From positions 22,320,001 through 22,384,000 of the forward strand of contig CM075103.1 in the NCBI GenBank assembly GCA_037576195.1: a stretch of 64,000 nucleotides of DNA, in the 5' to 3' direction. The position numbers and the translations under genes are program-made. The DNA comes from Phytoseiulus persimilis. Taxonomy: Eukaryota > Arthropoda > Arachnida > Mesostigmata > Phytoseiidae. The notes below the pieces were generated by a model that saw only the letters and a list, made by a program, of their open reading frames with translations, was not told the origin of the DNA and did no database searches. Positions 18,776 through 22,713 of this stretch are shown here, in pieces (positions within the stretch are counted from its first letter, which is position 1; each line of letters starts with the position of its first letter).

Positions 18776-21700
18776 TCAGGTCTGTGGAGTCGATGACTTG
18801 CTTTTCGAGGCCTGCCGGCGCTTCGGTGACGGGGACGCAACCGTCTTCGTCACGCTGAAAATCGCGGGCAGGATGAAATTACGTGTCTTGCGCCCTCTCT
18901 GGACACACGGATGTGGTAGGGAGCACCGGCTCGCTGGAGTACGAACCTGTCGGCTGAACGTTGGAGCCTCAGAGCCGACACCGGAGCTGGTAGGATAGCT
19001 CACCGCGCAGAGCGACACGGGATATGGTTCCTCCGCGAGAACCGGGAAGGACGCTTCGACCGCCCCGCTAGTCGAGTCAGTTTTGTCCAGATCATTGAGA
19101 GCATGGGTCTTCATGTGAGTCTTCAACAGATTCGATGTCGTGAAGCCCCGACAACAGAGCTGCAAATGAGGCTCGTTACGCTACCTGTGAGATCGTGCTC
19201 TAGGAATCTGCAACTCATCCAACTTCACTTCGACTTACGGAGCACGAATGAGGCCTGTAGCCCGTATGTATGAGCTTGTGAGTATTCAGGGCAGATTTCT
19301 GGATGAAACCCCTCCCGCAGAACTCACATAGATGCGGCGCCTGGAATCCGAGATAAATTTCGCAGCGGGTCATTCAACATTGGCGGTTCGGTTGGAGTCA
19401 TAACTGAGTACTCACCTCCCTCGTGTGAGTCCGAACGTGGTCTGTGAGCGTAGAACTTTTCGAGAAACCTCGTCCGCAGTGTTCGCAAATGTAGGGTGTT
19501 TCGCCCGTGTGAACGCGCTCATGGTTCTGTAATTAGTAAGATCGTCCCGGTCGTTCAGATAGCTCTTGGGGATTCGGAGCCTGGCTCTGCCGCCCGTCGA
19601 TTGGAGAATCGACGGGCGGCAGAGACATCAATTTCCGTATTACGGAGTACGGAAATTCTTAGCCTTAGAAGCATTGAATATAGACGAAAAAGTCTTTGAG
19701 TGAAATTGTTCACCGCAATGAGCTTTAAAACATTGCTTCGTTGTTTTCACTTTTTCCTCTCCATCCCTTACGGTGCTAGATAGGGGAAAATGATGAAGAG
19801 CTTCTTTGTCCACCTCTTCGTGCTGAACAATTTCGGTCATGAGACTTTTCCGTCTATCTCAACTCGTTCCTATACAAATGAGGGAAACTCTCGCGAGAGT
19901 TCTCAAAAATTCCAAGTCCGATTATCGCACTTGGTCTTATGAGCCCAGTTGTGGAGCCCACGTTTTTTCGAGTTTCCGGCAGAATCGTTGGGAATAGACG
20001 GAAAATTGTCATGACCGAAATCGTTCAGAAAAGTGAGGCAGACAAAAAAGCTCTTCATCATTTTCATCTATCTAACACCGTGAGGGAGTTGGAGGAAAAA
20101 GTGAAAACGACGAAGCGATGTTTTAAAGCTCATTGCGGTGAACAATTTCACTCAAGGTCTTTGTGCTCTATCGTCAATGCTTCCGAGGCTAAGAATTTCC
20201 GTACTCCGTATTACGGGAATTGAAGTCTAGAGAATGACGGACTCACTGGGTTCGGGATCTTCATTCGATCGTTTTTCCATTCTAATTACCTGAACGTGAT
20301 GTTTCTCACGGAAGCGCAATTCGCAGAACTGACATTTGAAAGGTCTGTCTCCTGTGTGTATGCGCTCGTGGCGCAAAATGCTCCTCCGAATATCTGACCT
20401 AGAGTGCGAAGGAAGGATCAGAGGGACGTGAGACGGTGAGTGCTGCTGATGCGTCGGATTAGAATATTTTTTTTCTCTCCGTCTCTCACATGTATTCACA
20501 GTGATCACACTTGAAGCGCTTGCCTCCCGGTACATAAGCTGCTGAGAGCGGCCTCCCCTTCTTCTTCGTCACGACGACCCTTGGAAAAGTGGAGAAATCA
20601 TTATTCCTCGGAACTTGAGCTAAAATACGGCAGAAAACAGACCAAGCGTCTTCAAGAACCCCCCCTCACTTTGGTTTCCCTGCTATTGGTTCGTCGGTGG
20701 CAACCTCTTCCCCACGGATGGTCGACGATTGCTTTTGTCCAGTTCTCTCGAGGCTTCCTGTCGGAATCCGTTTCTTTCTCGTCTCGGTTTTTGCGGAGAC
20801 CCTGACCGCGGGACTCGGTCTCTTTCGGAGAGTCCTCGTGGTGCTCGCGGCGACGGTGGGGATATCGTACACGGGAACCGCCGATTCAGCCTCTGTAGTG
20901 TCTTCGAGATTCTCCACTTCACAGTCGGCTCTGTTCAGAGGCGCGAGGGAGACACTGGCCTCGGGTTTCTTCCTGGTTCTCACTGTTGTCGGCTTCGTGG
21001 AATGACTGCAGAGATGCCGCACGGCGCGTTCGAGCTGACTGAAATCTATGGAATCCCTGTCAGAAACACGAGTCGATCCCTCTCGGCAACGCCGGATACA
21101 CGGAATGAAACACCAGGCACGATGGAAGTTTTGCTCACCGCACTCATGATCCTCCGGAGTACTTTCCCATAAGCGGGTGATTGCGGAAAGAACTGGACTC
21201 GAGAGCTTACCCGGGGCTTCAATCATGAGCCGTTTCCTCAGCCCTTCCGAACGAACCCCGACGATAAATTGTTCGCAGACTCGATCCGGAGCCTGAAAGT
21301 TACAGTTTTTTCGAGGGATTCGCACCGAGGAAACTTCAATACTTCATCGCCGTCCGCGCTACGTAGGCACCTCGTGGAAGTCGCATTCTTTGGCTAGGTC
21401 CTGCAAGCGAGCCAAAAAATCTGCTCCGCTCTCCCCATCATTTTGTCTTTGGCAAGTGAACTCCAATCTGTAAGAAACACACCAAGATTCAATTCAATGT
21501 ATCAAGTACAATGCTGCAGGGAACACATCACCGTACAAACTGATGGGATCGAACATCAAATCATACAAATTGCACGGAGCACGAGCCAACTGGGACCGGT
21601 GACGAATTCTCGGCTACCGTGGGAAAATAAGGGATCGGAGGCGGAGCTCTCGATCCCTCGAGCTCTGGGGCCAGGTTGATCTACTCAGGACAGACATTTT

Positions 21701-22713
21701 ATCGGCTTCCTAGGCTCTACCTTTTCTTCCAGACTTTGTTTGGTTTGTAGAAGGCTTCCTCCAGGATTTTGAAGACTCGACTTTCATCGCGTGTATCATC
21801 CTCATCCCCGGAGAGTCTGTTCTCACTCAAAACTTCCCTGATTTGTCGTCCGCCAAGCTTTCGCAGCATCTGGATCTGGAACCAGGACGGACGTGCGAAT
21901 ATGATTCCGAGCGATCTCCCCGGTTCGAGAGCATTTGACAAGAAACGCTGAAGGTGAGCAGCCTAGACTACAGATGTTTACCTTTGTACCGATGCGGTCT
22001 ATCTCGAAGAGTCGGAAGAAAGCATCCAACAAAAACTTGTAACTGCTCCAATCTATCGTTCGAGATTCGAACTCATTCAACATGGTTTCCGCCGGTCCGC
22101 GGAGTATCAAGCTCGAACTCTGTGCGTCAGCCAACAGCAGTCTATTGTACTTCGATTCGTAATCCTGTAACCAGTCAGAACGACATTGATAAGATCGGCC
22201 GGCACGATCGTGACTCGTGATTATCAAGTTTCACTTTCTGCGCCGAGTCTCAGCTTCACCGCCGCCTCGCTCGTCAAGAGTGCAAGGAGCGCAGAGAAGC
22301 GGATCAATTCTCCACAAGCGGAGCAGGGAATAACTTCACTTGAATCTCGACGTGGAGGCTAGCGAGGACACTGCGAACTTCCTCTGTGGTTGTCTCTCAG
22401 GACGAGAACCGAGAACACGAATCCCTCGATCGATAACGTTCAGCTTCATAAATTCCCAAAACGTGGGATACACTTCAGGTAGAACGAATCAACAGTGAAC
22501 TGGTTCGGTTCCCATGTTGCGACGATTGCCGTGGGGATGGCTCACGCCGACACATCCTCAAAAGCTCCTGGACTTGAGCCCCATCAGTCTCGGCCAGGCT
22601 ATTCTGACTTACTCGAGTCTAACGTCATGAAAGAATCGAGCCCTCAGGATGAATGCGATCAGCTGTTCCGACGAATTTCGATCCAGCGCTTTCGCCGCCG
22701 CCGCAGCCGCCAT
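18776..22713 (-). CDS. Gag-like capsid domain fused to five C2H2 zinc fingers
   Basis: Twelve exons with GT-AG borders and matching phases (22713-22613, 22370-22340, 22164-21982, 21875-21721, 21467-21371, 21292-21211, 21045-20670, 20579-20490, 20398-20290, 19526-19416, 19340-19239, 19159-18776) give 606 residues from ATG 22713. Residues about 45-235 read as a Ty3/gypsy Gag capsid ([62 protein letters not shown]). A basic linker with KKKGRP follows. Then come five C2H2 fingers: C366, C369, H382, H386; C394, C397, H410, H414; C422, C425, H438, H442; C450, C453, H466, H470; C478, C481, H494, H498. Linkers are of the HTGE and HTGD type. Introns interrupt both Gag and fingers, and the finger spacing is restored only after splicing. 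This argues for an expressed host gene. A nuclear DNA-binding, self-associating regulator is inferred. The two first exons, including a 31-bp one, are least certain. Confidence 0.85.
19585..19624. repeat. Perfect 18-bp hairpin with a 4-nt loop
   Basis: Arms CTCTGCCGCCCGTCGATT (19585-19602) and its exact reverse complement (19607-19624) flank GGAG. It lies in an intron of the gag-zinc-finger gene, four bases from a foldback element. Confidence 0.95.
19629..20222. repeat. Foldback element 1, about 594 bp, inside a zinc-finger gene intron
   Basis: Left arm 19629 to about 19865 and right arm about 19985 to 20222 are inverted copies, roughly 85 percent identical, with a loop of about 120 bp. The ends are themselves palindromic (TTCCGTATTACGGAGTACGG). 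Both arms, each read toward its own outer end, keep an open frame of about 66 codons starting MTEIVQ and containing [10 protein letters not shown]. Many arm differences alter residues conservatively. It occupies most of the intron 20289-19527. Confidence 0.92.

Follow-up and report, generated by a model that had tools for sequence, protein, structure and literature searches.

A conserved mite gene predicted to join a Ty3/gypsy-type Gag capsid region to five C2H2 zinc fingers

The window analysed here is a 64,000-nucleotide stretch of a mite genome of 181 Mb (G000:C3:22320001-22384000). Its G+C content is 51%; a published table lists Metaseiulus occidentalis at 52%, T. mercedesae at 44% and Varroa destructor at 41% (PMC5467014). 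On the minus strand of the window lies a predicted gene of 12 exons, in which a Gag-like capsid (CA) region is followed by a basic linker and five zinc fingers, and all 11 introns are bounded by GT-AG and consistent in phase. The frame adjoining this gene encodes AP-2 alpha and shares 93% identity with an ENA protein and 84% with the proteins of Varroa jacobsoni and Tropilaelaps mercedesae, while identity to the named ticks among the matches listed is 64-68%. We take the mite to be a member of the Mesostigmata distinct from both of these genera, and probably a phytoseiid. The first gene model of the capsid-finger gene had 582 residues and the revised model, read from the ATG at 22628, has 606, with predicted segments for CA (residues 49-228), linker (229-362), fingers (363-498) and tail (499-606).

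The start of the gene is the part of the model that admits several solutions. Exon 1 (22613..22713, with its donor after 22613) was delimited by phase-compatible combinations of ATG and acceptor, and exon 2 (22340..22383; candidate acceptors at 22395, 22383, 22377, 22370 and 22358) by frame and GT-AG only. The sequence-only reading had the protein begin at 22713, which does keep the frame, but the ATG at 22628 keeps it equally well. Five ATG/acceptor combinations of exons 1 and 2 fit the frame, two of them beginning at 22713, and homology lends support to none of the five.

The CA region begins in exon 3 (21982..22164), behind an N-terminal part, as placed by tBLASTn with the Varroa and Tropilaelaps proteins and by Gag frames of the same genome. 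Exon 4 (21721..21875) encodes the N-terminal lobe and the start of the C-terminal lobe, according to the genome Gag frames and the orthologue alignment. Exon 5 (21371..21467), placed by the Gag frames, tBLASTn of the orthologues and the CA alignment, contains the stretch Q-x3-GES-x2-DF-x7-L-x3-C, which resembles the Gag major homology region. The C-terminal lobe ends in exon 6 (21139..21292), as seen by tBLASTn and alignment of the orthologues. With the orthologues as a guide, the 3' end of this exon was revised from 21211 to 21139 without a change of phase, and the residues gained pair with GELTMRKAFDIAQLWE in the two orthologues. Exon 7 (20670..21045), based on the gene model and the orthologue alignment, encodes the last CA-side helix and the basic linker. 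The gene model together with tBLASTn of the orthologues defines the remaining exons: exon 8 (20490..20579) with the linker end and the first part of finger 1, exon 9 (20290..20398) with the remainder of finger 1 and most of finger 2, exon 10 (19416..19526) with the end of finger 2 and finger 3, exon 11 (19239..19340) with finger 4 and the start of finger 5, and exon 12 (18776..19159) with the remainder of finger 5, a tail of 108 residues and the stop. Reading through the exon 7 donor (window 20670) gives an immediate stop after KPK, so that a transcript retaining that intron would encode CA and linker without the fingers.

Four introns cut the CA-coding region, at junctions 3/4, 4/5, 5/6 and 6/7, and the earlier claim of at least four phase-agreeing introns in the Gag region is thereby upheld. 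We checked junctions 3/4 to 11/12 by aligning the protein with its two orthologues. At seven of the 11 junctions of the gene (3/4, 4/5, 5/6, 8/9, 9/10, 10/11 and 11/12) the alignment to both continues with no gap; junction 6/7 adjoins a gap of three residues, and junction 7/8 falls within the gapped linker. Codon usage was also compared with that of the neighbouring AP-2 alpha exon. In this weak test the coding frame is preferred in all four segments of the protein, from CA through linker and fingers to the tail.

The two orthologues came from a protein search with the finger half of the gene, which returned 1149 proteins; two of the 120 listed are conspicuous, each with 75% identity. One (P0174) is a T. 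mercedesae protein of 781 residues recorded as 'zinc finger protein-like', and the other (P0177) a V. jacobsoni protein of 736 residues recorded as 'zinc finger protein 143-like isoform X2'. Because the records carry such names, the capsid part is easily missed. Both have an N-terminal CA region, a linker and five fingers, as in the mite protein, and the first-model mite protein is 38% identical to P0177 over 498 columns. Since the same CA-linker-five-finger layout is found in Varroa jacobsoni and Tropilaelaps mercedesae, the sequences argue that this is one conserved mesostigmatan gene, neither a false join nor a decaying insertion. The conservation in sister species that the sequence-only reading asked for is thus found at the level of predicted proteins, and its intron-bearing gag-zinc-finger gene stands, with a 12-exon GT-AG model in phase and a layout repeated in two more genera.

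It could be argued, given that the exon junctions are predicted, that the model falsely joins two neighbours: the decaying remains of a Gag insertion and a zinc-finger gene of its own. Apart from the same joined protein being predicted in the two other genera, the exons themselves speak against this. Exon 7 runs continuously from the last CA-side helix, which is aligned in Varroa, into the linker, and the frame of exon 8 has no ATG between the upstream stop and finger 1. We consider a false join hardly credible, and it is almost certain that the capsid-finger gene is a real fused host gene.

The origin of the CA region is best seen in the same genome. A tBLASTn search with the first-model CA (E≤10) found at least 50 places, five of which are the gene's own exons. 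Among the 45 non-self places listed, 10 have E≤1e-3, the best being 3.1e-6. In five of the 10 the match reaches from about residues 40-50 to residues 190-199, and in nine it is free of stops. Uninterrupted Gag frames of the genome are collinear with the CA region. They have a CCHC knuckle in frame at 18 of the 25 non-self Gag loci examined and no C2H2 motif within about 3 kb of any of the 25, whereas the mite gene has introns and no knuckle. The frames nearest to the mite CA lie at C1:53170833 and C3:30354024; those nearest to the Tropilaelaps CA, at C3:34325667 and C3:12909149, are different ones.

We compared the CA regions with profiles built from Gag frames. Against a profile of 16 stop-free genome Gag frames, the first-model CA scored 94.0 bits, and the top of 2000 shuffles scored 8.4. 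As the 16 frames had been chosen by the query itself, the fairer test is with the CA regions of the Varroa and Tropilaelaps orthologues, which had no part in selecting them. The Tropilaelaps CA scored 102.7 bits, the revised mite CA 89.1 and the Varroa CA 84.3, with 11.0 for the top of 3000 shuffles, and comparison of the orthologue CA profile with the genome-Gag profile gave a probability of 99.5% (E 3.7e-22). The signal is weaker when the profile is built from 25 frames selected with PF03732: 14.2 bits for the first-model CA (top of 2000 shuffles, 10.3), 14.4, 10.6 and 10.2 bits for the three CA regions (top of 3000 shuffles, 8.1), and a profile-profile probability of 85% over 71 columns. 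By homology to the Gag frames of its genome, we therefore assign the CA region as probably derived from a Ty3/gypsy-type Gag, an assignment that is weaker with the Pfam-selected profile.

General databases give fainter signals. Pfam named no family in the mite CA, whether it was run as a single protein or as a row of the CA alignment. PF03732 reaches E=0.005 in the Varroa protein, at 17.5 bits under a cut-off of 24.1, and has no match in the Tropilaelaps and mite proteins. NCBIfam added a single match, weak and uninformative, which was shared by two proteins. A search with the N-terminal 330 residues against 5.8 billion proteins yielded 6572 candidates, none of which reached E≤1e-3, and the orthologues surfaced only when the finger half was used. 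When the CA sequence was run on its own against the PDB, no Gag came up. Among the 14 CA rows, comprising the three orthologues and 11 genome frames, PNMA was matched at E≤10 in 10 of 14 and Retrotrans_gag in seven of 14. Among the 24 sequences listed in a search of the PDB with the CA profile, PNMA2 capsids take the first two places (E 0.0035 and 0.004), while HERV-K Gag (E 0.29) and Drosophila Arc2, at chance level (E 0.57), rank among unrelated chains. Like the mite CA, Arc and PNMA derive from domesticated Gag capsids, and PNMA is the Pfam family of most CA rows. To our knowledge, the Arc and PNMA families have no C2H2 fingers.

A predicted structure of the Varroa orthologue, made from a two-row alignment, has an all-helical CA of low confidence (mean pLDDT 44.8); in blocks of ten residues, pLDDT is 63-80 for residues 31-110 and 43-55 beyond. 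A Foldseek search with this low-confidence model returned zinc-finger PDB chains as all 50 matches listed of 279, and another fold search had unnamed proteins and C2H2 viral proteins among its best matches.

The finger half is clearer. Five motifs of the form C-x2-C-x12-H-x3-H stand in tandem at a spacing of 28 residues, and PF00096 and PF13465 are above cut-off in the region, in agreement with the five canonical C2H2 fingers beyond a basic linker described from the letters of the DNA. That fingers are completed across splice junctions also proved correct, with the count being three rather than two: finger 1 (exons 8/9), finger 2 (exons 9/10) and finger 5 (exons 11/12). By motif and spacing the fingers are of the C2H2 DNA-binding type, and sequence-specific binding is putative. 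We compared what we take to be the four main DNA-contact positions of each finger. Among the mite, Varroa and Tropilaelaps, 16 of the 20 residues are identical, namely all 12 in fingers 3-5, three of four in finger 2 and one of four in finger 1. The linker carries KGRP/RGRP stretches, with three RGRP in the Varroa protein, and we assume that these resemble AT-hooks.

Conservation is uneven along the protein. Identities between mite and Varroa are 58/179 (about 32%) in CA, 33/131 in the linker, 102/136 (about 75%) in the fingers and 21/95 aligned residues in the poorly conserved tail. The wide gap in identity between CA and the fingers may mean that CA is weakly constrained, and it would suit a reading in which the fingers do the work and CA is a passive relic or spacer, loosely kept. 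Nevertheless, the CA frame is still open in three genera with Gag-like key residues (within the conserved stretch, Q, E and C are invariant in 14 of 14 CA rows), and the CA regions of Varroa and Tropilaelaps are close to each other. A passive CA is in our opinion improbable.

A tree built from CA alone groups the three orthologues with weak support (60/45), so the case for a single fusion event is made by the common layout, the identity of the fingers and the shared linker end VPGGKRFKC. Mesostigmata have been dated to 132-142 Ma and Dermanyssoidea to 65-70 Ma (PMC7936031). If the mite of the window is a phytoseiid, we infer that the fusion is older than the split of phytoseiids from the Dermanyssoidea. 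In what we regard as the best explanation of the gene, the fusion probably predates the split between the lineage of this mite and that of Varroa and Tropilaelaps. Since the related Gag frames have no introns, the gene also offers a chance to date the gain of introns. We found no further copies of the 253-base intron at 21468-21720, one of the four CA introns, that would point to its origin from a repeated intron.

The closest parallel in layout is the SCAN-ZNF/ZKSCAN group of vertebrates, in which a Gag-derived helical domain likewise precedes the C2H2 fingers. This domain, SCAN, has been described as a homologue of the C-terminal portion of the capsid protein found in Gmr1-like gypsy elements (PMC4592553), and Ty3 CA, whose lobes have the SCAN fold, has been described as a 'double-SCAN domain fold' (PMC6525542). 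Given this double-SCAN fold, the mite protein would be comparable to a SCAN-ZNF factor in which both lobes are present: SCAN corresponds to one CA lobe, whereas the mite gene matches both, and SCAN-ZNF genes belong to amniotes and the capsid-finger gene to mites. The sequence-only reading had seen an arthropod counterpart of SCAN-ZNF. The analogy of layout holds, but the sequences showed no relation to SCAN. The SCAN domain (PF02023) has no match at E≤1 in the mite protein and both orthologues, nor at E≤10 in the 14 CA rows, and a rough comparison of CA with a SCAN profile from seven proteins (P0138 having been dropped for lack of a motif match and P0189 trimmed to its first 99 residues) gave no signal, with a probability of at most 1.2%. 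By these sequence tests the mite protein does not belong to the SCAN group.

Arthropods have C2H2 proteins with an N-terminal association domain of the ZAD or BTB type in front of a C2H2 array, a plan that the mite protein would share. Neither ZAD (PF07776) nor BTB has a match at E≤1 in the mite and orthologue proteins. A 2026 survey of fusion genes from horizontal transfer in 319 arthropod genomes reports a mosquito C2H2-Harbinger fusion, and the words 'gag' and 'varroa' are absent from its main text (PMC13389597). The sequence-only reading knew of no described arthropod family of this kind, and we likewise found none in the open-access literature, searched through titles and the starts of abstracts and covering few subscription papers. 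Within these searches the capsid-zinc-finger gene is undescribed, and a related layout is already known from SCAN-ZNF. What the sequences support is a gypsy-type Gag CA that predicted splicing joins to C2H2 fingers, an arrangement kept in sister lineages.

How could such a protein work? The CCHC knuckle and pol genes of a retrotransposon are absent from the gene, and introns split its CA. Most likely, the product is a sequence-specific nuclear factor that would associate with itself through its capsid domain. We suggest that the five fingers recognise one fixed site in DNA, that the basic linker with its KGRP/RGRP stretches contributes DNA contact and affinity, and that the CA lobes mediate dimers or oligomers, which would lead to cooperative binding or to the bridging of sites. 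Its nuclear location, self-association and regulatory role are inferred. We think it probable that a DNA-binding factor here self-associates by way of its capsid, and we favour, with some reservation, the gene as a domesticated mesostigmatan one in which a Ty3/gypsy-type Gag CA upstream of five C2H2 fingers acts in this manner.

It is also conceivable that the protein restricts retrotransposons, its CA co-assembling with and poisoning the shells of mite gypsy Gag while its fingers hold the DNA of the elements. Many gypsy-type Gag frames do lie in the genome (at least 79 PF03732 places), and a function of this kind has been a matter of speculation for SCAN proteins (PMC4592553). However, fingers 3-5 have the same contact residues in all three genera, unlike the outcome of an arms race, and no expansion of the gene was seen: the other Gag-like places listed are element-like, none of the 25 loci examined has a C2H2 motif nearby, and no second intron-split Gag-finger gene stood out among the matches listed when these 25 loci were examined for fingers. 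We hold restriction to be unlikely.

A self-associating DNA-binding factor, the reading that we prefer, might go further than pairing. As a more speculative possibility, which we rate as rather doubtful, the gene would be an independent arthropod invention of the SCAN-ZNF kind that kept both CA lobes and forms multivalent, lattice-like assemblies on DNA instead of mere dimers. If true, a capsid would have been re-used as a chromatin scaffold and held in Mesostigmata since before the lineage of this mite split from the bee mites. A Gag capsid with a C2H2 array outside vertebrates, conserved in three mite genera that include parasites of the honey bee, is in itself a natural replicate of the SCAN story, and with two independent origins one can ask why zinc-finger proteins recruit capsid domains.

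Two other features of the region deserve mention. Exons 9 and 10 are separated by an intron of 763 bases that contains an inverted-repeat element of about 607 bases (window 19623-20228), with arms of 235 nt that are 86% complementary and 136 nt apart. All 40 of the places scored (itself included, of 132 candidates) are 98-100% identical and near full length, and for that reason the element is young, much copied and inserted into a pre-existing intron. About 1.1 Mb from the gene, at G000:C3:21186350-21206815, lies a cluster of giant zinc-finger frames, where the C2H2 matches fall within open frames of 1239, 2021, 2258 and 2482 residues.
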